A stretch of DNA of 64,000 nt from an uncultured Roseburia sp. (GTDB taxonomy: Bacteria; Bacillota; Clostridia; Lachnospirales; Lachnospiraceae), in NCBI GenBank assembly GCA_947567625.1, contig CANONN010000002.1:1-64000 (forward strand), read 5' to 3'. This document shows, piece after piece, positions 2,744 to 62,236 of the stretch (position 1 is the first letter of the stretch; each line of letters starts with the position of its first letter). A program made the position numbers and the translations under genes. The notes beneath the pieces are model-generated. The model was not told the DNA's origin, made no database searches, and worked only from the letters and a program-made list of their open reading frames with translations.

Positions 2744-2783
2744 ACGAATCCTCCATTCCGAGCGCTATAAATAACTCTGTTTC
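2744..2783 (-). repeat. family B intergenic cassette, short remnant
   Basis: The 40-base gap between the RNase Z stop and the next start carries GTGAGAAAC, AGTTATTTAT, AGCGCTCGGAATGGAG. This matches the right end of the longer family B cassettes elsewhere in the window (GTGTGA..., CTATTTGTG, stem, GGAATGGAG). Only the tail with the Shine-Dalgarno remains. Confidence 0.45.
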
Positions 2784-5388: not shown

Positions 5389-5457
5389 ACCTTTCTCTCA
5401 ACCTGCAAACTTTGGGCGACAGGCACAAATTTGCGTGTGAAAAATTTATTTTTCACA
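5389..5457 (-). repeat. family B intergenic hairpin cassette (tsaE-tsaB)
   Basis: The gap begins with a perfect inverted repeat, GTGTGAAAAAT facing ATTTTTCACAC, directly at the tsaE stop. The TGA stop of tsaE is part of its left arm. A second stem follows (GCAAATTTG / CAAAGTTTGC), then the AGAAAGG ribosome binding site of tsaB. The layout matches cassettes ahead of other genes in the window. Confidence 0.7.
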
Positions 5458-5902
5458 CTAACTCCTCTATGATTTCACGGACGGTTATCTTCCGGTAATC
5501 AAATCCTCGTTCCAAATCTTTTTCTATGGTAATCTCACTGCGTCGCGGGGGCAAGATCGGCTCTATCAGGTCCGCCCACTCGATGATACACAGCCCTTTG
5601 CCATAAAAGTAATCTTCGTAACCGATTTCGTCCATCTCTTCGACATCGCCGATACGGTATACGTCAAAATGATAAAAGGGCATACGCCCTCCCTCATACA
5701 CTTGTACAATGGTGAATGTGGGACTGCAAACAGCCTCTTTGATGCCAAGTCCCCTGGCGATTCCCTGTGTAAATACCGTTTTCCCCACACCCAGGTCTCC
5801 TGTCAGTGTATACACATCTCCCGGAGCAGCCAGACATCCAATTTTTGCCCCGAGCTCTTCCGTCTCCTCCGCAGAATACGTCTCATAAACTGTCTCTCCC
5901 AT
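5453..5902 (-). CDS. tsaE: tRNA threonylcarbamoyladenosine biosynthesis ATPase TsaE
   Basis: TsaE is a small P-loop ATPase needed for turnover of the TsaB-TsaD complex. Seen: Walker A GDLGVGKT near residue 36, the SPTFTIVQVYEG block, HFDVYRI and IEWAD, all diagnostic. I chose the ATG at 5902 (149 aa), which has GAGG five bases ahead; a GTG two codons up is the alternative. It follows the YcxB-like gene closely. Its TGA stop lies inside a family B hairpin arm. Confidence 0.96.
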   Translation of the reverse strand: MGETVYETYSAEETEELGAKIGCLAAPGDVYTLTGDLGVGKTVFTQGIARGLGIKEAVCSPTFTIVQVYEGGRMPFYHFDVYRIGDVEEMDEIGYEDYFYGKGLCIIEWADLIEPILPPRRSEITIEKDLERGFDYRKITVREIIEELV

Positions 5903-6523: not shown

Positions 6524-6551
6524 GAGGCACTTTCGTTCAATTTGCCTCGGC

Positions 6552-6640
6552 TGTAACAGTTTTGCCTCGGCTTCCCTGCTATTCAGCATTACTGGCTGCT
6601 AACTGCACAGCAGGTGCGCAGTTGCAGGCGGAATTGTTAC
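6552..6640. repeat. family A structured intergenic repeat, copy 1
   Basis: Starts TGTAACAGTTTTGCCTCGGC and ends with the partly complementary GGCGGAATTGTTAC. Inside, CTGCACAGCAGGTGCGCAG forms a small hairpin that is also found, with other stem bases, in copies 2 to 4. It lies between the end of the cobalamin-uptake operon and the tsa operon promoter. Confidence 0.6.
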
Positions 6641-6647
6641 CTTCACC

Positions 6648-7754
6648 TTAACTATTGCTGACCGCGATACCCGCCTCCCTCGCGCGCGCTAACAGTCTAT
6701 AATTTTCCATGTTTCCCGTGCCAAACTGCGCAGCCGGACAAATGACCCGCCTGCATGTGCAAAGCAGCTGCCATGCCTCTTGTGCCCGGGCAGCCGATAC
6801 CGGCTCAAATGCCTGCTCGCTCACCACCTTGACTGCCAGCGCTTTGGCAACCGGGTATTCGATGTCATTTTGGTGAATCACTCCTGCATAAAAGGCAACA
6901 TGCTGCCGCTGTAGCCGATGATACACGGGAATTGCCTGCCCGCCGCCGCCGATGACAAAAACCTCCGGCTTTCCATTGACCCCCTCCAGCTCCAAAAATC
7001 CGAGCTGCGCATGGTAGCTGCCCTTGTCTATCCCGTACAGCTTTGCGATGTAGGAAGCCTCCAGCACCTCCTCCGGCGCGCCAACCCGGTCGACCCGTCC
7101 ATCCTTGATACATATCACGGTGTCCGATATTTTCTGAGCCAAATCCAGCTCATGCAGCGACATGAAAACAGCCAGATTTTTCTGCCGCACCAGCTCCTCT
7201 AAGATTGACAACAGCTCCAGCTTATGGCGAATATCCAAAAATGAGGTCGGTTCATCTAAAATCAAAAGCTCCGGTTCCTGGCAGATTGCGCGCGCCAGCA
7301 TGACCCGCTGTCTCTGGCCGTCGCTGACGTCCTCGAAAGGGATATCGGCCAACTCTTTGGCCTGTACCATATCGAGAGCTTGCCGCACGTTCTCTTTGTC
7401 GAGCGCCGACAAAAAACCCATGCGGCCCGTGTAAGGATATCTTCCGGTTGCCACGACCTCGCCGCAGGTCATAAGCTCCGTGTGGATGCGCCCGGTCATG
7501 ACCATCGCTGTTTTTCGCGCCAGCTCTGCCGCGGTGTAGCGTCCCAACAGCCGCCCGCCGAGTGTGATTTCCCCATCCAGCAGCGGAAGCTGCCTGGCAA
7601 AGCTTTTTAAGATCGTAGATTTACCGGAGCCGTTCGCCCCGATCAAGGTTGTAATACAGCCGCGCCGCAAAGAGAGCGCAATATTCTCCACCACCGCCCG
7701 CGCCCCATACCCGACGGTTACGTTTTGCGCACATAAATATGACGTGTTTTTCAT
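6648..7754 (-). CDS. cobalamin/iron-complex ABC transporter ATPase with extra C-terminal domain
   Basis: The ATPase of the BtuCD/FecE class. Walker A GANGSGKST (39-47), Q-loop region, signature SDGQR (144-148), Walker B LLILDEPT (164-171) and the switch histidine SLHELDL (199-205) are present. After the ATPase core (about 250 residues) comes a domain of about 108 residues beginning EVFVIGGGG (264-272), looking like a small Rossmann-type fold, which typical BtuD/FecE proteins lack. I chose the ATG preceded by AATGGAG; the longer open frame is only leader. Context (cobalamin riboswitch, CbiK) argues for corrinoid or cobalt-related uptake, not siderophores, but substrate is inferred. Confidence 0.9.
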   Translation of the reverse strand: MKNTSYLCAQNVTVGYGARAVVENIALSLRRGCITTLIGANGSGKSTILKSFARQLPLLDGEITLGGRLLGRYTAAELARKTAMVMTGRIHTELMTCGEVVATGRYPYTGRMGFLSALDKENVRQALDMVQAKELADIPFEDVSDGQRQRVMLARAICQEPELLILDEPTSFLDIRHKLELLSILEELVRQKNLAVFMSLHELDLAQKISDTVICIKDGRVDRVGAPEEVLEASYIAKLYGIDKGSYHAQLGFLELEGVNGKPEVFVIGGGGQAIPVYHRLQRQHVAFYAGVIHQNDIEYPVAKALAVKVVSEQAFEPVSAARAQEAWQLLCTCRRVICPAAQFGTGNMENYRLLARAREAGIAVSNS

Positions 7755-7980
7755 ACGATTCTCCATTCTGGAGCGTTTGCGCGACAGGGCGGCGCAAATC
7801 TCAAATCTTGCGTATCGCGAACAAGTTCGTGCGCCATCCGTGCTATTTGTAACGCTCCAGCACAAATAGTTGGTATACTGCTTGCCGTATTGCGATGATC
7901 TCATCTGCGATCAGGGCATATCCCCGGCTCTGACTCAAATTGCCGGTTGAAAAATCAACGATCAAGCTGATTTTTCAACC
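7755..7980 (-). repeat. family B intergenic hairpin cassette, long copy (permease-ATPase gap)
   Basis: The gap between permease and ATPase genes begins with a hairpin (GGTTGAAAAATCA facing TGATTTTTCAACC, 7945-7980) that includes the permease TGA stop. It ends with a long element closed by CTGGAGCGTT (7768-7777) and AACGCTCCAG (7851-7860), followed at once by AATGGAG and the ATG. An inner stem carries CGAACAAGTTCG. The last 115 bases closely match 57602-57712. Confidence 0.8.
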
Positions 7981-13052: not shown

Positions 13053-13089
13053 CGACCAATTACTCGTGATCCGGAATCTATATTCCTGT

Positions 13090-13250
13090 ACCAATAGCTG
13101 GCAGGTTTCCTGGCTTACCGATCATCATACAAAACCGTCTTCCCAATATACTCAGTGACTGTGTCTTACACGCGGGTTTTGCACTCCTGGCTTACAGTGA
13201 CGAGATCGCACAGGACTTACACCTGTTTCCCTTTTAACCGTTATCTTAAA
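13090..13250 (-). promoter_or_regulatory. cobalamin riboswitch
   Basis: On the minus strand the conserved blocks of an adenosylcobalamin aptamer are present in order: GGGAAACAGGTGTAAGTCCTG, the CGTCACTGTAAGCCAGGAGTG core, and the closing B12 box AAGCCAGGAAACCTGCC near 13095-13125. It controls the downstream cbiK and uptake genes, presumably turning them off when B12 is plentiful. Subclass cannot be set by eye. Confidence 0.95.
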
Positions 13251-13288
13251 CGATCGTAAACGCATCAAAGAAATGCGCTTACGATCAT
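13250..13288. other. strong hairpin upstream of the cobalamin riboswitch
   Basis: CGATCGTAAACGCAT and ATGCGCTTACGATC form an almost perfect stem of 14 pairs with a short loop. It lies inside the leader transcript just before the aptamer. It may shield the aptamer 5' end or act as a boundary; no T-tract follows. Confidence 0.5.
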
Positions 13289-14214: not shown

Positions 14215-14284
14215 GCATTGTAAACATACAAAAGAATCTGCCGCTCCTCCTGCATCTCTTTTGGTACGCTCATTCGTTATGCGC

Positions 14285-14464
14285 TCTTCTCTCATCCAGA
14301 CTGTACTGTCGGTCCCAGAATCTCACTGGGTCGGCTGCCCTAGTGTACTAAAAATTCATTCTGCGCCATTTAGCTGAAATGAACGGGTCAGTACACCCGC
14401 AGTTCACGGACTTTCCGGCACTGCCGGATTCACCGTCGGTCGGGAATCACACCCTGCCCCGAAG
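14285..14464 (-). promoter_or_regulatory. FMN riboswitch (RFN element)
   Basis: On the minus strand the RFN signatures appear in order: CTTCGGGGCAGGGTGTGATT, CCCGACCGACGGTGAATCC, AGTCCGTGAACTGCGGG, and the closing GGGACCGACAGTACAGTCTG then GATGAGAGAAG. It precedes ribU and should repress it when FMN is abundant. Confidence 0.96.
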
Positions 14465-14489
14465 AATTTCTTATTTGTTTGCAAGCTGT

Positions 14490-16265: not shown

Positions 16266-16409
16266 TGTAACAGTCCAGCCTTGGCTTCCCTGTTACGGAA
16301 TCCTCTCCATTTAATGTTTGCCTGCGGCAAAGGAGCGGATTCCTGGCTGTTCGGCACTACCGGCCGCTAACTGCGCAGCAAGTGCGCAGTTTAAGGTTGA
16401 ACTGTTACA
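16266..16409. repeat. family A structured intergenic repeat, copy 2
   Basis: 144 bases with terminal inverted repeats TGTAACAGTCCAGCCTT and AAGGTTGAACTGTTACA. Inside are two hairpins: GGAATCC...GGATTCC (with GTTTGCCTGCGGCAAA between) and CTGCGCAGCAAGTGCGCAG. This is the cleanest copy in the window and shows the element boundaries. Confidence 0.75.
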
Positions 16410-18282: not shown

Positions 18283-18428
18283 TGTATCCGTTCATCGTTC
18301 GGCTTCCCTGTTACGGAATCCGCTAAAATTTGCAAATTTGCCTGCGGCAAAGCAGCGGCTTCCCTGCTATTCGTCACTACTGGCTGCTAACTGCGCAACA
18401 GGCGCGCAGTTGCAGGCTGAACTGTTAC
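18283..18428. repeat. family A structured intergenic repeat, copy 3
   Basis: Begins TGTATCCGTTCATCGTTCGG and ends GCAGGCTGAACTGTTAC, with the internal CTGCGCAACAGGCGCGCAG hairpin and the GCCTGCGGCAAA block of copy 2. It sits directly downstream of the blaR1 stop. Confidence 0.65.
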
Positions 18429-26159: not shown

Positions 26160-26559
26160 ACTCTTAACCCACGCCTTTCCTTACCGAAATTTATAACTGC
26201 CCTCGTCCCTAACTTAACATGGTAAACGACAGAATCGACTGCCGTTGACGGTACAAGGATTTAGTAATGCCCCAAACCACTTAAGTTTACCTAATTTATA
26301 TTATTATACACGGTTTGTATTCATATTCCAACTTTATTTTTTCTTAAATTTATATCTACAAATTTATATCCGCTCTTTTCCTTTTATAACGCTTCAGACA
26401 AGCGCACCTGCCGCTGTTTTCCCGCCCGGGATGATGAAAACTAAAGAACGGCATGGGGGAAACATTATTTTTCTTCTATACAAAAAAACAAAAATGTGTT
26501 ACGTTTCCTATAGCGCCGGTTACAAATTTGAATCGCAGTAAACGGCTCTGACATGGAGG
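26160..26559. other. divergent intergenic region, no gene seen
   Basis: About 400 bases between the glycosyltransferase and aminotransferase genes. A short stretch TTGACGGTACAAGGATTT (26248) echoes the ribU-region repeat. Open frames are short and lack ribosome sites. Confidence 0.4.
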
Positions 26560-26699
26560 ATTACTGTGAAAAATCATCTTGATAGCTGATTTTTCACAGA
26601 CAAATTTGTGCCGAAGCGTCACAAATTTAAATCGCATTGCCGAATCTGACATTCGGCTTGCGTTCCTGCGCGATAAATCGCTTCGGAATGGAGATAACT
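26560..26699 (+). repeat. family B intergenic hairpin cassette before the aminotransferase
   Basis: Contains CTGTGAAAAATCA facing TGATTTTTCACAG (26564-26600), then CAAATTTGTG, a long stem closed by CCGAAGCG (26611-26618) and CGCTTCGG (26679-26686) with an inner GCCGAAT/ATTCGGC hairpin, and AATGGAG before the ATG. From about 26619 on it is nearly identical to 61236-61303 ahead of a GT-D gene. Confidence 0.85.
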
Positions 26700-27887
26700 A
26701 TGAAAAACACACACCGCAAATCGTATCTGTCCGATGTTGTCCGGCATATCCCGGACTCCGGCATCAAGGACTTTTTTGACATTGCCAACACAATGGAGGG
26801 CGCCCTGTCGTTGGGCGTGGGGGAACCGGATTTCCCGACACCGGCATATGTGCGCGACGCCGCGATCGCTTCCATTAAGAAAGCACAGACAAAATATACG
26901 GACAACCGCGGCACCGTTGAACTGCGCGCTGCCGCCGCCGACTATCTGGAAAAATTCGGCCTCCACTACGATAAAGCAGACGAGGTCTTAATTACCATGG
27001 GCGCCAGCGAGGGCATCGACTTAGCGCTGCGCGCCCTGGTAAATCCCGGCGAGGAAGTTCTCGTGGTGGAACCGTCGTATGTCTCTTACATACCATGCGT
27101 GGAGCTCTGCGGCGGCATACCGGTCTCCATTCCCCTGACAGCAGAACACAATTTCCGCCTGACCCCGCAGGAGCTGGAAGAAAAAATAACGCCGCGCACT
27201 AAGGCGCTTATCATTTCCTTTCCCAACAATCCCACTGGCGCAATCTTAGAACAGCAGGATATCGAAGCGCTCCGCGAGGTCGTGATCGCACACGATCTTT
27301 TTGTCATCACGGACGAGATCTATGCGGAACTGACGTATCAAAACCCGCACGTATCGATCGCGGCCCTGCCCGGCATGTATGAGCGCTGTGTGGTTTTAAG
27401 CGGATTCTCAAAGGCGTTTGCCATGACAGGCTGGCGCATGGGCATCGCTGCGGGTCCGGCGGAAGTGATCTTCCACATGAACAAAATTCACCAGTTTACC
27501 ACCATGTCAGCCGGCACCACCTCACAGTATGCGGCATTGGAGGCTCTTACAAACCCGCTGCGCGAGCAAACAATCGCTAACATGCGGACGGAATACGATG
27601 CGAGACGACGGCTGATGGTAGACGGCTTCCGCCAGATGGGGCTCTCCGTCACGGAGCCCGGCGGAGCATTTTATGTATTCCCCTCCATCCAAAAAACCGG
27701 CCTCTCCAGCATGGAATTTTGCCGGAAACTGCTGGAGGAACAGCGGGTCGCCGTCATCCCGGGCAGCGCCTTTGGCGACTGTGGGGAAGGATATATCCGC
27801 TGCTCCTATGCCTATTCTAAGGAGGTCATACGCCAATGCCTGGATAAAATTGCCGCTTTTGTCGCCGAGAAAGGATTCCCATGTTAA
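26700..27887 (+). CDS. PLP-dependent class I/II aminotransferase
   Basis: A 395-residue fold-type I aminotransferase of the aspartate/aromatic group. Seen: SLGVGEPDFPTPAYV, TMGASEGIDLALRAL (PLP phosphate site), FPNNPTGA, ITDEIYAEL and the PLP lysine in SGFSKAFAMTGWRMG (about residue 237), plus the C-terminal RCSYA arginine. The open frame's first 21 codons are translated cassette sequence; the true ATG has GGAG in AATGGAG. It overlaps mutY by seven bases. Exact substrate cannot be set. Confidence 0.92.
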   Translation: MKNTHRKSYLSDVVRHIPDSGIKDFFDIANTMEGALSLGVGEPDFPTPAYVRDAAIASIKKAQTKYTDNRGTVELRAAAADYLEKFGLHYDKADEVLITMGASEGIDLALRALVNPGEEVLVVEPSYVSYIPCVELCGGIPVSIPLTAEHNFRLTPQELEEKITPRTKALIISFPNNPTGAILEQQDIEALREVVIAHDLFVITDEIYAELTYQNPHVSIAALPGMYERCVVLSGFSKAFAMTGWRMGIAAGPAEVIFHMNKIHQFTTMSAGTTSQYAALEALTNPLREQTIANMRTEYDARRRLMVDGFRQMGLSVTEPGGAFYVFPSIQKTGLSSMEFCRKLLEEQRVAVIPGSAFGDCGEGYIRCSYAYSKEVIRQCLDKIAAFVAEKGFPC

Positions 27888-32051: not shown

Positions 32052-32128
32052 AGGGTAGTGTGAAAAATCAGCTCGATAGCTGATTTTATCACACGGCTAT
32101 TTGTGACGTTCTCGGAATGGAGGATTTT
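32052..32128 (+). repeat. family B intergenic hairpin cassette before the GH13 gene
   Basis: GTGTGAAAAATCAGCT facing AGCTGATTTTATCACAC, then GGCTATTTGTGACGTTCTCGG, AATGGAGG and the ATG. The long closed stem of other copies is reduced to its right half. Compare 53861-54010, which has the same ACGTTCTCGG arm with its partner. Confidence 0.8.
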
Positions 32129-53098: not shown

Positions 53099-53860
53099 TT
53101 AATGTTTCTTTGAATGGCAAAATCCCCGCTTCCCTTCCCTGAAAATCAGCCACAGATAGCGGGTATTGGTCACAAAATAGCGGCGAAACAGGCGCTTGGG
53201 GTCCTGTAGCAGCCGATACAGCCATTCCAGGCTGCATTTTTGCATCCAGCGCGGCGCGCGCTTAATATTGCCGGCATGATAGTCAAACCCCGCGCCCACG
53301 CCGATCATGACGCCGCCCACGCTGCCTTTGTGCCGGTACATCCAGTTCTCCTGTTTGGGGGCGCCAAGCCCCACCCAGATAATGTCCGCTTTGGACGCGT
53401 TGATCTTTTCCACGTCAGCCGCATCCTCCTCACGGCTTAGCTGTCGAAACGGAGGCGACACCATGCCCGCAATCTGTAAATGCGGATATCTTTCGGTGAG
53501 CTTTTGCCTAAGTAGAGCCAGCGTTTCCTCGGTCGCACCATAAAAATAATGACGAAGCCCATTGTCCCGCGCGAACAGCGCCAGCATCAAATCAGGCCCC
53601 GTCACCCGCTCCGCCTGCGGGAAACCGTGCTTCCTGCTGTAGACGGACAAGGGCTTGCCGTCCGGCAGCACAAACGCGGCCTCCCGCTGCACGACGCGGT
53701 AATTGAGGTCGTCATGTGCCATCACCGTGGTGTGCACATTGCCCACACAGATATATTCGCCGCGCAGCCCTTCGATATCTTTCTCGATGCGCGCCACCGT
53801 ATCCTCCATCCGCGTCACCAAAACATCCGTCCCTAAAATGTTACAACATTGATTTTTCAC
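53099..53860 (-). CDS. WecG/TagA/CpsF family glycosyltransferase
   Basis: A 253-residue GT26 enzyme that adds N-acetylmannosamine-type or related sugars to a lipid-linked acceptor. Seen: NVHTTVMAHDDLNYR, LPDGKPLSVYSR, RVTGPDLM, FYGATEET, WVGLGAPKQENWMYRH and GVGAGFDYHAGNIKRAPRWMQ. The start is the GTG after GGAATGGAGATTAGT, giving the normal family length; the longer frame is translated cassette. Second sugar addition after the initiating transferase is the usual role. Confidence 0.93.
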   Translation of the reverse strand: MKNQCCNILGTDVLVTRMEDTVARIEKDIEGLRGEYICVGNVHTTVMAHDDLNYRVVQREAAFVLPDGKPLSVYSRKHGFPQAERVTGPDLMLALFARDNGLRHYFYGATEETLALLRQKLTERYPHLQIAGMVSPPFRQLSREEDAADVEKINASKADIIWVGLGAPKQENWMYRHKGSVGGVMIGVGAGFDYHAGNIKRAPRWMQKCSLEWLYRLLQDPKRLFRRYFVTNTRYLWLIFREGKRGFCHSKKH

Positions 53861-54010
53861 ACTAATCTCCATTCCGAGAACGTTTACGTTCGAGGAACCG
53901 CAGGAGAAATCTGCGAATGCAGTTTCTCCTGTCGGATCAGGGCTTATTTGTGACGTTCTCGGCACAAATAACCGTGTGATAAAATCAGCTATCAAGCTGA
54001 TTTTTCACAC
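53861..54010 (-). repeat. family B intergenic hairpin cassette, complete copy
   Basis: Three stems: GTGTGAAAAATCAGCTT/AAGCTGATTTTATCACAC-type hairpin (53974-54010, supplying the TGA stop of the upstream gene); a stem closed by CCGAGAACGT (53874-53883) and ACGTTCTCGG (53953-53962); and inside it AGGAGAAA/TTTCTCCT (53902-53930). AATGGAG follows directly. After the Shine-Dalgarno a second GTGTGAAAAATC appears, whose GTG is the start codon of the next gene. Confidence 0.85.
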
Positions 54011-54820
54011 TACTACCTCCAAAGGAATCCCCCCAATATAGGACGGCAGGAGGCTAAATGTGCTGTTAAAGCTTCCCAGAATCTTTTTTCCCCTCGAGAG
54101 CGCCAACATTTCAATATAGGCATCCACCAGCCCCTCTTTTGAATTGCGGTCGATCACACCGTTCTCGTAAAAAATCAGTTTATCCGCCGGCATCTGCCGC
54201 TTAAGCTCTTCCTTTACCCCGGCGTCATCCGTGGCAATGAAAAAATTTGCATCCGCATCGGCTTCCAGCTCGCGGCGCATATACTCGACAAACAGCGACA
54301 GCGGGCTTTTGGCGATCGCCTCCACATGATCGGTTCTGCGGATATGCACGCCGACCGTGTGGGCGCCGATCTTTGCGAATAGCTCTTTTCCTTTTTCCTC
54401 CACGCTTTTGGCGGGCTTTAAAAAAGTATAACAGGATGCGTCGAGCTCACAGATCGGCCCAAACGACTTAAGATAGATGCGCGGCGTATCCCGGATTACG
54501 TTCTGTAATCCCTCATATCCACGCTGCTTTTTGATCTCCTCGACCTCGCCGCACTCTAAGAAGCGCTCCGAACCTCTGCGCCATTTTTTCATGACAAAAC
54601 TGCCCGCAAAATGAGCCAAAGGCTCCTTGGAATAACCGTTCTCACTTACCTCGATCACGCGCATAGGCAGCTCAAAGAGCTCCGCCGCACGCACATTACA
54701 CCCGACTTCCCGCTTCCACATAACAATCAATTCTCTGTTTAATTTCCTTGCCACCGCGTAAGCAGACCCCAAGCCCAAAAGCTTATTGCCTAACCCCGCG
54801 CAGGGTTCTATTATAATCAT
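54005..54820 (-). CDS. fucosyltransferase-like glycosyltransferase (HxRRxD type)
   Basis: A 271-residue protein starting IEPCAGLGNKLLGLGSAYAVAR, a GDP-sugar-type entry seen in fucosyltransferases, with HIRRTD (159-164), the GDP-binding motif I of alpha-1,2/alpha-1,6/O-fucosyltransferases, ATDDAGVKEEL and a GSFNSTFSLLPSYIGGIP end. It resembles NodZ/GT23 or GT11 relatives. Its TGA stop is provided by the following cassette. GGGAGG precedes the ATG. Donor GDP-fucose is inferred. Confidence 0.8.
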   Translation of the reverse strand: MIIIEPCAGLGNKLLGLGSAYAVARKLNRELIVMWKREVGCNVRAAELFELPMRVIEVSENGYSKEPLAHFAGSFVMKKWRRGSERFLECGEVEEIKKQRGYEGLQNVIRDTPRIYLKSFGPICELDASCYTFLKPAKSVEEKGKELFAKIGAHTVGVHIRRTDHVEAIAKSPLSLFVEYMRRELEADADANFFIATDDAGVKEELKRQMPADKLIFYENGVIDRNSKEGLVDAYIEMLALSRGKKILGSFNSTFSLLPSYIGGIPLEVVV

Positions 54821-54834
54821 ACGCTAACCTCCCT

Positions 54835-55034
54835 GCCGCGACTCAAATCCGCGCGGAGAATCCAACGTCATATATGACGTTGCCATGCATGGCGTGTTTT
54901 TGGGGATTCTCCAATGCGAACTTGTTCGCATTAGAGACTTAGAACTTCTTAGCGCGTGAACTTGTTTCACGTTAGCGCCCTCTGGCGTGAGCAAAAGCTC
55001 GTTTACGAGCTTTAGAAGTTCTTCTCACACTCCA
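54835..55034 (-). repeat. family B-type nest of hairpins between exporter and fucosyltransferase genes
   Basis: 200 bases packed with stems: GGAGAATCC/GGATTCTCC enclosing AACGTCATATATGACGTT; AATGCGAACTTGTTCGCATT; GAACTTCT/AGAAGTTC enclosing GTGAACTTGTTTCAC and AAAGCTCGTTTACGAGCTTT. The centre motif GAAC-TTG-TTC is shared with other family B copies (7820 area). A GTGTGAGAAG lies next to the exporter stop. Confidence 0.65.
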
Positions 55035-56762
55035 TTACTGTAGATGAATCGAACCGTCCTCCACTTTGTACACCACATCACAGTTTTCAATCGTCGAGAG
55101 ACGGTGCGCGATAATGAGCATCGTCATCTTGCCCTGCAATCCGTCGATCGCCTCCATGACCGCCGCTTCCGTCTCCGTGTCGAGCGCCGAGGTGGCCTCG
55201 TCAAGTACCAATACCTGCGGTCTGCGGTAAAGGGCCCTGGCAATGCCGATACGCTGTCTTTGTCCGCCGGAGAGCCGCACTCCCGCTTCCCCGATCATCG
55301 TGTCTAACCCCTCGTCGAGCGAACGCACAAATTCATCGAGCTGCGCCTGCTTTAGCGCCTCCCAGATTAGCGCGTCATCAATCGTTTCAGCCTGTCCGAA
55401 CGCAATATTGTTGCGAATCGTGTCGTCGAGCATATAGATCGTCTGGGGTATATAGCCGATCTTTTCATGCCAGCCGCGGTAAGAGACGGCGATATCGGTG
55501 CCGTCGACCGTGATCCTGCCCTCTTTCGGCTTTAAAACGCCGAGAATCAAATCCACCATCGTCGTCTTGCCCGCGCCGGACGGACCGATAAACGCCACGG
55601 ACTTATTCTTGGGAATCGTCACGTCAATATCCCGCAGCACCGGTTCCTCCACATCAGGGTAGGTAAACGTCATATGCTCCACCCGAATTTCACGCTCAAA
55701 AGGCAGAGAGGCATAATCGGCTTTTTTCTCGACGTCAATCTCCAAATCCCGGATACCGACATACTGCTCGCCGATCTTGTGGATGACGACGCCGTTGTGA
55801 ATGATAGACGCCAGATACTCCGACATTTTGTTTGCCGAGGGAAGCAGCGAAAAGGCCGCGGCCGCAAATACGCCCAGCACCCCGACAAAATGCGCCGGGT
55901 CAGCCCCCGACATATTGACGCGCACCGCGATCGCCGCCATCAGCCCGCCGATACAGAGCGCTTCCATCATCGGCTTGGGGATCGAACTCAAAAACGAATT
56001 TTGCTTGATCACATAAGTGTAAAGGCCGTTTTGTTTACAGAACTCTCCTTCAAAGTATGCCTCCCGGTTGGCAATCTTAATCTCCTTGATGCCGCCAAAC
56101 GCCTGCTGCATACACTGTAAAATATTGGCATTGTAGATGCGGCGCTCGTCCCCGAAGCGCGCGAGCGTCCGCTTGAGCCGTTTCATAAACAGAAGCACCA
56201 AAAGCACCATGCCAAAGGCGATGCCCAGCGTAATCACAGGGTCGGTCACAATCAAAAAGATCACTAACACCGCGCTGGTACATAGCTCCGCCGCAAGCTG
56301 AAGCATATTTAAAACGGCGGCGTAAAACATTTCGGGATCATTGTTGATGTCGCGCATCAGCTCTGCGCTGTTGTGGTTCAAAAAGAACGTATAATCCTTG
56401 CTGATGTAATAGCGCATCATCTGGTTTTGCATGTCCTGCTTGCCGTAGTAGGAAAACCGGTACTGCATGTTGTTCATGAAAATAATGAACCCGTTTTTGC
56501 CGATATACACCACGATAATCAGCACCGCAAGCGCCGTGATTAACTGTGTGGAATCCGTCATACCGAGCGCATCATAAAAATAACGGACATACCGGTTGGC
56601 AAGCAAAACCTCCGGCGTTGTCACCGCCTGTATAAACGGCAGCAAAATCGACACGCCAAGAAGGCTGACCGCAGAGTTGATCAGTATCAAAACCGCCATA
56701 CCCAAAAGCCTGCGTCTTTGTCTGCCGTCAAAAACTTTAAATACACTCTTAATTAAATCCAT
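55035..56762 (-). CDS. ABC exporter with fused permease and ATPase (MsbA/PglK-like flippase)
   Basis: A 575-residue half-transporter. Residues 1-320 hold six membrane helices; the ATPase (about 345-575) shows Walker A GPSGAGKTTM, the LSGGQRQRIGIARALY signature, Walker B VLVLDEATSALD and the switch His in IIAHRLSTIE. PglK-like ABC flippases move lipid-linked oligosaccharides across the membrane, and position in the middle of this glycan operon supports that. No Wzx is in the window, so this is the best candidate flippase. Start chosen after GAATGGAG. Confidence 0.9.
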   Translation of the reverse strand: MDLIKSVFKVFDGRQRRRLLGMAVLILINSAVSLLGVSILLPFIQAVTTPEVLLANRYVRYFYDALGMTDSTQLITALAVLIIVVYIGKNGFIIFMNNMQYRFSYYGKQDMQNQMMRYYISKDYTFFLNHNSAELMRDINNDPEMFYAAVLNMLQLAAELCTSAVLVIFLIVTDPVITLGIAFGMVLLVLLFMKRLKRTLARFGDERRIYNANILQCMQQAFGGIKEIKIANREAYFEGEFCKQNGLYTYVIKQNSFLSSIPKPMMEALCIGGLMAAIAVRVNMSGADPAHFVGVLGVFAAAAFSLLPSANKMSEYLASIIHNGVVIHKIGEQYVGIRDLEIDVEKKADYASLPFEREIRVEHMTFTYPDVEEPVLRDIDVTIPKNKSVAFIGPSGAGKTTMVDLILGVLKPKEGRITVDGTDIAVSYRGWHEKIGYIPQTIYMLDDTIRNNIAFGQAETIDDALIWEALKQAQLDEFVRSLDEGLDTMIGEAGVRLSGGQRQRIGIARALYRRPQVLVLDEATSALDTETEAAVMEAIDGLQGKMTMLIIAHRLSTIENCDVVYKVEDGSIHLQ

Positions 56763-56779: not shown

Positions 56780-57598
56780 TCACATGATCAACCAATCCTT
56801 AAGGCTCATCTGACGGCAGCCCGGGTACTCTGGCACGATCACTGTCTTATCGGGATTGCTGTTTAAATAGGCGGCCCATGTCGAAAATGAGCTGTTGGAA
56901 ATGATCTGATTCTGACATGCCGCCATCAGGAAAAACTCGTCGATATCGCTAAAATCGCCCAAATCGGCCGCGTATGTCAGCTTTTCTTCCCCTGCAATCT
57001 GCGCGAGCGCTTCTCTCGCCTTTGGCATATCGTTGGTAAATACCAGATAGGTAAGTTGCGGCTTTAACTGCCGCATCTTCGCGATCGCCGTCTCAAAAAA
57101 CGCTCTGCCCGGCCCTACGATATCGCCGCCCCTCACATGAACTGCACAGGTAGGCGCTGCTTTCAGTTCTTCTGTCAGCTTTTTTACACGCTCGCCCTGC
57201 GGATAAGCCGGCGTCATCATGGCGGTAATTTCGTCGAGATAATCCGCAAAATATTCCAAAAACTGCCAATATCCGTGCAGATATCGGCTGCGCAGACCGC
57301 GGTGCGGCGCAAAAACGCGCGCGTCCACCGCATGAATATCGCGCTCCTTTACCACTTGGTACTTGAGATTGCGCCTGAGCCTCTTATAGATCTTCTGCCA
57401 GACCGTGCGGTTGGGAAACGATTCTCTCCCGTCATAGCGCAGATGAAACTTGTCCAGTTCAAAATCACGCAGCGTGGAGTTGTCACACTCGGAGGTGTCA
57501 AGCAACAGCTTTTCTCCTCCGCGCCTGGCCGCCGCGTACCCACAGGCATAGTTGAATAACTGATTCCCCATGCCGTCTCCAATCTTAACTACAATCAT
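56780..57598 (-). CDS. alpha-1,2-fucosyltransferase family 11 glycosyltransferase
   Basis: A 272-residue GT11 enzyme: GDGMGNQLFNYA (7-18), HVRGGDIVG (154-162, GDP-fucose-binding motif HxRxxD), FTNDMPKARE and the C-terminal SNSSFSTWAAYLN (with the conserved SSFS). This is the bacterial alpha-1,2-fucosyltransferase pattern found in gut bacteria that make H-antigen-like surface glycans. The first ATG overlaps the ribosome site; I use the second. No GDP-fucose synthesis genes are in the window. Confidence 0.92.
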   Translation of the reverse strand: MIVVKIGDGMGNQLFNYACGYAAARRGGEKLLLDTSECDNSTLRDFELDKFHLRYDGRESFPNRTVWQKIYKRLRRNLKYQVVKERDIHAVDARVFAPHRGLRSRYLHGYWQFLEYFADYLDEITAMMTPAYPQGERVKKLTEELKAAPTCAVHVRGGDIVGPGRAFFETAIAKMRQLKPQLTYLVFTNDMPKAREALAQIAGEEKLTYAADLGDFSDIDEFFLMAACQNQIISNSSFSTWAAYLNSNPDKTVIVPEYPGCRQMSLKDWLIM

Positions 57599-57772
57599 AC
57601 TAATCTCCATTCTGGAGCGTTTGCGCGACAGGGCGACGCAAATCCCAAATATTGCATATCACAGAAAAATTCGTGCGTCATCCGTGCTGTTTGTAACGCT
57701 CCAGCACAATATAGCCAACGTGAACAAATTCACGTGTGATAAAATCAGTGATCAAGCTGATTTTTCATACTA
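57599..57772 (-). repeat. family B intergenic hairpin cassette before the GT11 gene
   Basis: Begins at the DegT gene stop with GTATGAAAAATCAGCTT facing a GATTTTATCACAC arm, then a CGTGAA/TTCACG hairpin, then a long element closed by CTGGAGCGTT (57612-57621) and AACGCTCCAG (57695-57704), then AATGGAG. It is the close relative of 7755-7870 (same closing stem, same GCGCGACAGGGCG strand). Confidence 0.85.
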
Positions 57773-58876: not shown

Positions 58877-58935
58877 TTTGATCTCCATTCTGGACTCTTT
58901 ATAAAAATGCTCTCTCTATTCAATCTATACGTTCC

Positions 58936-61170: not shown

Positions 61171-61303
61171 GCATTGCCGAATCTGATATTCGGCTTGCGT
61201 CCCTGCGCGATAAATGGCTTCGGCACAAATTTAAATCGCATTGCCGAATCTGACATTCGGCTTGCGTTCCTGCGCGATAAATCGCTTCGGAATGGAGATT
61301 ACT
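61171..61303 (+). repeat. family B intergenic cassette, tandem double copy
   Basis: The unit GCATTGCCGAATCTGAYATTC... to GATAAATNGCTTCGG occurs twice in a row (61171-61225 and 61233-61290), then AATGGAG and the ATG. The second copy matches 26620-26699 almost base for base. The first differs at three bases and lacks the ribosome site. Confidence 0.85.
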
Positions 61304-62236
61304 ATGACAAAAAAATTCTTATATCTGCGCTATTATCTTAAACATTTGCGCCACAAACTGCGCGCGAAGCGCGGAGGCGAGTACGCCTATATGCACACGC
61401 CTTTTCTTGGCAAAATGCCGCCTTCCGACGAGGAGGCAAATACTCTGATCAAACAGAAAATAAAAAGCGGGCAGCCTTTCGCGCTCTGCCGGCTGGGCAG
61501 CGCTGAATTCACCCTGATGCAGCTCTACGACGAATACAGGATGTTCCGCCACAACAGACTGCACCAGAGCAATATGTACAGCCTCTTTCACGAGAGTATC
61601 GAGGAAATCGACCGCTGGTGTGCGCTCACCAAAAAAGATATGACAGACGTCGACATCATGGCGTATTTTGAGGATCATCCGATCGAAGAATATCTGATTC
61701 GCACCTATTGCAGGCAGGCCGCGTTAATCCGTCTGGAGCAAATTGAAACGTTCCTCTATGACGAGCCCTGGACGCTGGCGCTCGAGGGCAAACGGGTGCT
61801 GATTATCAGCCCGTTTGTGGAAACCATCAAACAGCAGTACCCGCGCATGGATAAAATCTATGAGGGGCAAAAGGTCCTGCCGTCATTTGAACTTTTAACA
61901 CTGAAATCCGTCTGGTTTTCCGGCACGGATGACGATTTTGACACTTATTTTGATGCCCTGGATTATCTCTATACCGAGGCGATGAAGATTGATTTCGATA
62001 TCGCGCTGTTAAGCTGTAGTACGTTTGGCTTTAATCTCGCCTGTATGTTTAAGCGCGCCGGCCGACAGGCCATTCAGTACGGCGGCGCCCTGCAGGTTTT
62101 GTTCGGCATCAGGGGCGCGCGCTGGGACAATTCGCCCTACACCAAATATTATAACGATTACTGGGTGCGCGCGCCAAAGACCGAGGCGCCGAGCAAAAGC
62201 TTTCAGAAAAAGCTGGACAATGGATGTTACTGGTAA
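61304..62236 (+). CDS. GT-D fold glycosyltransferase
   Basis: A 310-residue protein. FALCRLGSAEF (59-69) is the glycine/glutamate motif of GT-D enzymes (the DUF1792/SP_1767 group), followed by LIISPFVETIKQQYP and SCSTFGFNLACMFKRAGRQAIQYGG, and a RGARWDNSPYTKYYNDYWVRAP end typical of the group. These add glucose to surface glycoproteins or glycans. The frame upstream of the chosen ATG is cassette sequence. Confidence 0.85.
   Translation: MTKKFLYLRYYLKHLRHKLRAKRGGEYAYMHTPFLGKMPPSDEEANTLIKQKIKSGQPFALCRLGSAEFTLMQLYDEYRMFRHNRLHQSNMYSLFHESIEEIDRWCALTKKDMTDVDIMAYFEDHPIEEYLIRTYCRQAALIRLEQIETFLYDEPWTLALEGKRVLIISPFVETIKQQYPRMDKIYEGQKVLPSFELLTLKSVWFSGTDDDFDTYFDALDYLYTEAMKIDFDIALLSCSTFGFNLACMFKRAGRQAIQYGGALQVLFGIRGARWDNSPYTKYYNDYWVRAPKTEAPSKSFQKKLDNGCYW

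Follow-up and report, generated by a model that had tools for sequence, protein, structure and literature searches.

Short structured repeats, dispersed through the genome of an uncultured Roseburia sp., sit between the Shine-Dalgarno sequence (SD) and the start codon of unrelated genes, run in the sense direction and carry an SD of their own. We interpret them as a non-autonomous spreading element of about 113–175 bp that occupies the SD-to-start segment, a reading to which we give a probability of roughly 0.72. The analysis covered the window, the whole stretch of 64,000 nt, in which the index copy lies on the minus strand and is read from 54010 to 53858. All copies follow one plan or a derivative of it (Table 1): hairpin 1 (HP1), hairpin 2 (HP2) with a loop of 9–10 nt, usually a hairpin 3 (HP3), the word AATGGAG, about 6 nt of spacer and the start codon. 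Pairing of the HP2 loop with the antiloop, the stretch immediately upstream of AATGGAG, gives a pseudoknot; in the index copy the loop is the reverse complement of the antiloop. The original prediction had described a long stem that differs in sequence from copy to copy yet remains paired. The pairing was correct, and its real form is this pseudoknot between the HP2 loop (TTTGTG-loop-CACAAA) and the bases before AATGGAG. Loop and antiloop define the subfamilies a (CCGAGAACGT), b (CTGGAGCGTT), c (CCGAAGCGT), d (GTCAGAGC) and e (TCTGCGCGC), to which a short subfamily f is added. At the left end of the index copy, the foot of HP1 contains both the TGA stop of the upstream frame (54005-54820) and the GTG start of a 7-codon frame.

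Table 1. Coordinates of the index copy, its parts and the further copies and remnants in the window
Feature	Position	Strand	Remarks
Index element, subfamily a	53858..54010	-	From the foot of HP1 to the GTG start of the WecG/TagA/CpsF-type gene
WecG/TagA/CpsF-type gene downstream of the index element	53099-53860		GTG start
Left SD, GGAGG	54016..54020	-	Adjoins the index element upstream; by reading
HP1, index copy	53974..54010	-	37 nt
HP2, index copy	53941..53973	-	Strands GGTTATTTGTG / CACAAATAAGCC
HP2 loop CCGAGAACGT, 10 nt	53953-53962	-	5' strand of pseudoknot
HP3, variable domain, index copy	53898..53935	-	
Antiloop ACGTTCTCGG	53874..53883	-	3' strand of pseudoknot, directly 5' of the SD
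AATGGAG, element-borne SD, index copy	53867..53873	-	6 nt upstream of start codon
Element, subfamily b	57596..57770	-	Loop CTGGAGCGTT / antiloop AACGCTCCAG; upstream of glycosyltransferase-11 gene
Composite of subfamily-d head and subfamily-b body/tail	7752..7980	-	Upstream of ABC-transporter ATPase gene
Element, subfamily c	26564..26702	+	Loop CCGAAGCGT / antiloop CGCTTCGG; upstream of aminotransferase gene
Shortened form (HP1, TTTGTG, antiloop, SD)	32058..32128	+	Upstream of alpha-amylase-family gene
Two tandem subfamily-c tails (doubled tail)	61174..61306	+	Upstream of a gene
Short subfamily f	5389..5458	-	Between tsaE and tsaB; tail GAGAAAGG instead of AATGGAG
AATGGAG remnant, CCAG-AATGGAG	58883..58889	-	Upstream of DegT/DnrJ aminotransferase gene
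AATGGAG remnant, CTCGG-AATGGAG	2751..2757	-	Upstream of a gene
AATGGAG-only remnant	48519	-	Upstream of a start
AATGGAG-only remnant	62308	+	Upstream of a start

Each of the seven intergenic gaps named in advance carries this design or parts of it, and the covariance model R1, built partly from the window copy at 26564, matched all seven at E 3e-5 or better. Departures from the shared design with a constant AATGGAG end are the differing tail at 5389-5458, the shortened copy at 32058-32128, the doubled tail at 61174-61306 and the composite at 7752-7980. The subfamily-c copy follows a subfamily-d tail in tandem. Remnants consisting of AATGGAG alone were likewise found upstream of other starts, as had been proposed. 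Words resembling GTGTGAAAAATC (up to three mismatches) occur 104 times in the window against 67.9 expected, and AATGGAG words 22 times against 9.6, each count being reached in 0 of 100 shuffles.

Beyond the window, BLAST searches of the own genome returned at least 44, 37 and 40 matches with three subfamilies as queries and at least 43 and 41 with two further subfamilies, the searches overlapping one another. With a cut-off of E 0.01, R1 returned 101 matches in this 3.4-Mb genome, reduced to 80 non-overlapping places once overlaps, including back-strand matches of the palindromic HP1, had been removed; the weakest of these may be chance matches. Two other places are 100% identical to the index copy over 148/152 bases and lie upstream of different genes. 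Chance or artefact is ruled out by the copy number, the identical copies upstream of different genes and the covariation described below. Copies also stand in tandem, for example at 26532-26702 of the window and elsewhere in the genome (C4:64455-64798; C51:17619-18010). In subfamily e3, near-identical copies (AGATTGAAAATTAAAATTTTCAATC...AATGGAGAAAATT-ATG; L079-L084) precede six different genes of the own genome, which suggests recent spread. In the shortened forms (window 32058-32128; L050; L066), TTTGTG or a variant is followed directly by antiloop and SD. In the subfamily-c-like ones among them, the antiloop exactly matches the inverted HP2 loop, suggesting that the loop was inverted and the part between the resulting direct repeats then lost. 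Small GC-rich hairpins followed by ATGGAG or GAGAGG and a start codon (L047 ~1513, L044 ~1491, L071 ~708, L093; for example GCCGCC-AAA-GGCGGC-ATGGAG) may represent this design at its smallest.

The structure of the element is under selection. The nested fold of the index copy is far more stable than its shuffles (z -7.5; 0 of 200 as stable) and that of the subfamily-c copy also stands out (z -5.1), while the fold of the subfamily-b copy was not better than shuffles (z -1.1; 28 of 200 as good). The pseudoknot was assessed in 73 elements from the own and other genomes, which were collected by a TTTGTG-type hairpin followed by an AATGGAG-type word and a start codon, with pairing ignored. Mean loop-antiloop pairing was -13.3 kcal/mol as compared to -8.75 (sd 0.36) with permuted partners, and 72 of the 73 reached -8 or better against a permuted mean of 38.0 and maximum of 46. 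Subfamily e came barely past -8, and the sole failure was a false anchor on the strand opposite a real copy.

Covariation was counted in an alignment of 28 rows, namely the index copy and 27 of the 41 non-redundant copies with a recognised head; the other 14 were excluded by eye because they belong to subfamily e, carry an additional hairpin or a long insert, or have a head that is incomplete or unusual, and one alignment gap within the loop was shifted by script before counting. The figures, shuffle control included, are inflated by kinship among the rows, which slid controls and permutation remove incompletely: for the pseudoknot, 94.2% of cells are paired, 7 of the 10 pairs changed on both sides, and pairing falls to 22-41% when the strands are slid; for HP1, 96.4% are paired with 6 pairs changed on both sides; and HP2, at 95.8%, is mostly invariant, with 2 double-changed pairs as against 4 and 3 in two slid controls. 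Over the whole structure, counted in the 21 rows that have 9-nt loops and no long insert, 94.1% of cells are paired with 8 double-changed pairs, compared to 36-49% pairing in slid controls, and of 500 shuffles none did as well on four of five measures and one on the fifth. Several copies break pairs of the pseudoknot or HP1, and the pseudoknot contains G-U wobble pairs. According to these data, the covariation that had been anticipated holds above controls for the loop/antiloop as well as for the whole structure. In energy models that do not include pseudoknots, the unpaired probability of the SD was 0.577 with the pseudoknot bases withheld, as compared to 0.408 for shuffles handled in the same way (the element exceeding its shuffles in 53 of 64 copies), and 0.428 versus 0.370 with nothing withheld (39 of 64, p 0.047), suggesting that the predicted fold tends to leave the SD free.

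Regarding position, 40 of 53 places tested in the own genome, drawn from 56 of the 80, lead at the right end into an open sense frame 60 codons long or longer, such that most copies tested are oriented with the downstream gene. Of the 13 places lacking such a frame, five continue into a further repeat and for one the model end was misplaced. Few copies without covariation, or random orientation relative to genes, had been named as the outcomes that would speak against the original prediction, and both came out opposite. Junctions were analyzed in a set of 65 copies, derived from 86 candidates for which pairing and a nearby start codon were required and of which a motif rule dropped 21; the set probably includes one noise match (window, minus strand, ~47.7 kb), and the right end is misplaced in L071 and L213 at the least. 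In this set, preselected for a nearby start codon, the right SD lies 4-7 nt from the start in 63 copies, mostly at 6 nt.

The left end showed a similar arrangement. When the 19 bases beside HP1 were paired with what we take to be the 16S tail, the mean for 60 non-tandem copies was -7.5 kcal/mol, with 83% at -5 or better, as compared to 23% of 240 upstream windows (mean -2.9; p 4e-19) and 45% of shuffled versions of these flanks (mean -4.8). The flank consensus is GGRG, with a G-rich core at -8 to -5 and TA at -2/-1, and this core places the left SD about 6 nt from the NTG at the foot of HP1, like at the right end. A start codon is found at the HP1 foot in 63 of the 65 copies, the left end being free of start-codon selection. 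The short frame that begins there has 7 codons in 25 copies, 20 in 10, and other lengths, some exceeding 40, in the rest; its translation would be expected to start from the left SD and to run most often over 7 or 20 codons. The right GGAG is preceded by AAT in 46 of the 65 copies and the left SDs vary, indicating that the right SD belongs to the element. Among 39 left flanks with GGAG, 13 have AAT or CAT in front of it, resembling in this the SD that the element carries, so that some copies may follow unrecognised tails. The SD that precedes the left end, together with its start codon at the HP1 foot, was overlooked by the original prediction; the two mark the SD-to-start segment as the insertion site.

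An upstream frame ends near 43 of the 65 copies, and for 20 of these the stop codon of that frame falls at the element's left end or within it. Such an arrangement might be expected of an RNA-processing or mRNA-stability module of operons, in which HP1 at the upstream stop would be cut or would block exonucleases and the pseudoknot would protect the downstream message; ERIC and Correia repeats are indeed described, in the available part of one source, as changing mRNA processing (PMC3049150). As at least one copy follows a non-coding T-box-like leader (L219) and no gene, we consider this explanation rather unlikely.

Ten genes were queried in relatives of the genus. Seven of them were followed, all but hemA, cbiD and an ACT-domain gene, the true starts of the followed genes being located via protein similarity. 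Apart from TsaE and TsaD-family TsaB, the gene names used here (tgt, glmU, valS, rpiB, pyrC, HI0933-like) are presumptive. For tgt, a subfamily-a copy separates ACGGAGGATT from ATG in the genome G032, and its near relative G064 reads CAGGAGGGTTTT-ATG at the same place and is empty, as are five others among the matches listed. The empty sites of the other genes come from fairly distant species; among the matches listed, tsaB was occupied in the own genome only (1 of 10), glmU in 1 of 9, valS in 1 of 8, the HI0933-like gene in 1 of 3, rpiB in 3 of 7 and pyrC in both genomes (2 of 2). For tsaB, the gene junction differs as well: tsaE and tsaB overlap (ATGA) in the relative G035, and in the own genome tsaE now terminates at the TGA of HP1 in the copy at 5389..5458. 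R1 reported seven occupied orthologous loci and none at empty ones; it missed two shorter rpiB elements (L113 and L114), both of which were read by eye. In another family of the order, an element (L219 1216-1645) lies between the T-box-like leader, which at 85.5 bits is under the gathering score of 93, and a gene reading as valS; valS in the own genome also carries an element, of a different subfamily.

These comparisons bear on the possibility that the repeat is a host cis-regulatory leader (riboswitch, thermosensor or translational coupling device) recruited to many genes, whose pseudoknot would gate the SD upon a signal or upon ribosomes finishing the upstream gene. Strong covariation, an SD beside the pseudoknot, the sense orientation of most tested copies and a short frame behind the left SD in 63 of 65 would all suit such a leader. 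However, the downstream genes in the window are unrelated (aminotransferase, ABC ATPase, amylase, glycosyltransferases, tsaB), most relatives examined have the same genes without the element, whose distribution is patchy, identical copies precede different genes and the length of the short frame is not conserved. A regulatory leader is thus improbable, and spread is favoured over a gene-specific leader, as the original prediction had argued.

The junctions may hold a trace of how a spreading element enters its site. Common flank words of 9-12 nt occur in 7 of the 65 copies, the same segment standing on both sides over 12 nt in L027 and L038, 11 nt in L059, 10 nt in L152 and L195 and, by reading, ~16 nt in L213, the copy with a misplaced right end. 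Across the set, own-flank similarity is in small excess (mean common word 5.43 versus 5.12; 38 of 2000 permutations as high). For the index copy and its two identical relatives, right-hand sharing runs through the start codon and the next base (GTGA), and left-hand sharing starts at TAGTGTGA. Neither terminal inverted repeats, in the copies and the alignment, nor a target duplication of fixed length were seen by reading; the ends are HP1 and AATGGAG, and the inverted pair that the element does have, loop and antiloop, is internal. SD-spacer-start-like junctions, some exact direct repeats and tandem stacking fit integration into an SD-start segment that is duplicated in the process.

On these grounds, we propose that the AATGGAG at the right end would replace the SD of the gene, and because the element brings this SD along, the downstream gene should stay translatable. 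The displaced SD would remain at the left end, facing the start codon at the HP1 foot. The RNA is predicted to form two or three hairpins and the pseudoknot of the HP2 loop with the bases just 5' of the SD, and the pseudoknot may lock the body of the element away from the SD and keep it free, which would make insertions before housekeeping genes bearable. Mobility as a unit could follow, for instance, from a circular form entering by homology or from a recombinase recognising the SD-start segment. The SD-spacer-start segment would then act as a short homologous attachment site with a varying point of exchange, and this arrangement would explain the SD and start on both sides, the fixed strand, the tandems and the lack of a fixed duplication. 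Whether the repeats represent a class of mobile element that uses a translation-initiation signal as attachment site, rebuilds it on both sides and keeps the new SD open by a pseudoknot RNA we regard as close to, and somewhat below, an even bet.

A different route would be that of a single-stranded DNA repeat mobilised by an IS200/IS605-type or RAYT enzyme, with the hairpins serving as single-strand signals and the RNA fold being incidental. The hairpin at one end, the fixed strand, the GGAG-like left flank and the terminal inverted repeats not seen would be in keeping with it, and REPs are described, in the accessible part of the source, as RAYT-mobilised (PMC3733652). Among the nine carriers of index-copy matches, four (G023, G026, G028, G043) have matches to Y1_Tnp (PF01797). 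In contrast, there were 0 matches in the own draft genome G000 (93% complete) and 0 in the carriers G002, G006, G015 and G032, five of the nine in all and each an incomplete draft, and twelve genus members without an index-copy match do have the enzyme. A Y1/RAYT partner was thus not found in the own draft genome, and the G-U wobble pairs of the pseudoknot also speak against a DNA signal, making this route doubtful. It is very improbable that the repeat is a small gene whose frame behind the left SD makes a peptide: the start codon is properly spaced in 63 of 65, and the frame reads uninterrupted to the next start in the subfamily-f copy upstream of tsaB and in some copies of subfamily e, but the commonest frame has just 7 codons, lengths vary by subfamily and changes follow the base pairing; a leader peptide was rejected for the same want of a conserved length.

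The species distribution of the element is patchy. The index copy was matched in 9 of 61 genomes, own included. As R1 was run with eight scored candidates per genome and strict filters, its ranges are lower bounds. With a cut-off of E 0.001, at least 35 of the 392 genomes searched in the order had a match, in at least 23 of 173 genera, and a sample of 398 genomes from the phylum yielded a match in the own genome alone. The matches within the order fall in four families; for two of these (f11 and f5) there is a single weak match, that of f11 (L228) not resembling an element in our view. An exact 20-mer was found in 14 named contigs, labelled Lachnospiraceae, 'uncultured Roseburia', Clostridium MAG and uncultured Eubacteriales. 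Plasmid carriage was rejected, one query giving no plasmid match, as was phage carriage after two exact 22-base scans of viral contigs came back empty. Three queries all matched the same three faecal 'Bacteriophage sp.' scaffolds; in two of these, frames near the copies read like what are presumably enolase and Tex, and we therefore take both scaffolds to be bacterial DNA.

We could not match the element to any described family. At gathering score, Rfam reported only an FMN and a cobalamin riboswitch in the window (14280-14470 and 13083-13284, both on the minus strand), and at permissive E-values over 7 and 8 loci the sole match on an element was a chance-level mir-492 in L001 (20.7 bits against a gathering score of 76, E 1.1). 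A known riboswitch was dismissed, as no Rfam match reached threshold over an element, and so was a transcription terminator, there being no T run after HP1 by reading. The titles and abstract openings of the best full-text matches in the literature, drawn mostly from outside subscription journals, described no such element. The bcr1 repeat of the Bacillus cereus group, about 150 bp long, is thought to act as a structured RNA; we know of no SD-to-start position or pseudoknot-SD design for it.

Among better-known repeats, BOX, RUP and SPRITE of Streptococcus pneumoniae are, in the part of the source available, short, structured, present in many intergenic copies, inserted into one another and held to be parasitic (PMC3049150). 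The element resembles them in its many dispersed structured intergenic copies and insertion into one another, with a patchy species range. According to the same partial source, BOX is modular, some BOX elements supply start codons, its ends are tied to the inverted repeats of an IS, and it is enriched between convergent genes (PMC3049150); unlike BOX, the element has no IS-type end repeats that we could see, sits between SD and start, carries an SD and has a covarying pseudoknot. REPs, as far as the accessible text describes them, are GTAG-tagged palindromes mobilised by RAYTs, the GTAG/CGTC palindromes measuring 20-40 bp and many lying downstream of genes (PMC3733652). They share with the element the form of a small palindromic repeat with a short tag at one end, whereas the element is 113-175 bp long, lies upstream of genes and has no Y1 enzyme found in its own genome. 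ERIC and Correia repeats, like the element, are structured repeats within operons with possible effects on mRNA, and are described in the available portion of the source as altering mRNA processing; unlike the element, they are not described there with an SD or an SD-to-start position (PMC3049150).

If the attachment-site reading is true, the element can settle before housekeeping genes without silencing them. Its apparent target is the place where a gene is most vulnerable, and by bringing along the signal that it displaces it seems to make good the harm. Small bacterial repeats are usually thought to persist where they are harmless. Insertions of this kind would have rewired translation for many genes, housekeeping genes included, would form a naturally replicated series of experiments on the tolerance of ribosome-binding sites, and would point to an unknown recombination route that recognises the SD-start segment. 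The genome also offers dozens of covarying pseudoknots beside SDs for testing how structure sets translation.

Two further repeats were observed in the window. A 92-nt direct repeat, in which we saw no resemblance to the element, stands at three apparently intergenic sites (6549-6640, 16317-16408 and 18337-18428), with copies 66% and 85% identical to the reference copy. The second is a long structured repeat (GTGTGAGAAGAACTTCTAAAGCTCG...AAGAAGTTCT...) at 54826-55036 on the minus strand; an R1 match at 54820-54931(-), E 6e-4, was assigned to this different structured repeat and rejected as a copy of the element. It begins right after an AATGGAG and terminates with GGGAGG upstream of an ATG, and its head, or variants of it, also stands behind subfamily-a and -b tails in C14, C17 and C31. 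This repeat is a second family with the same kind of site.
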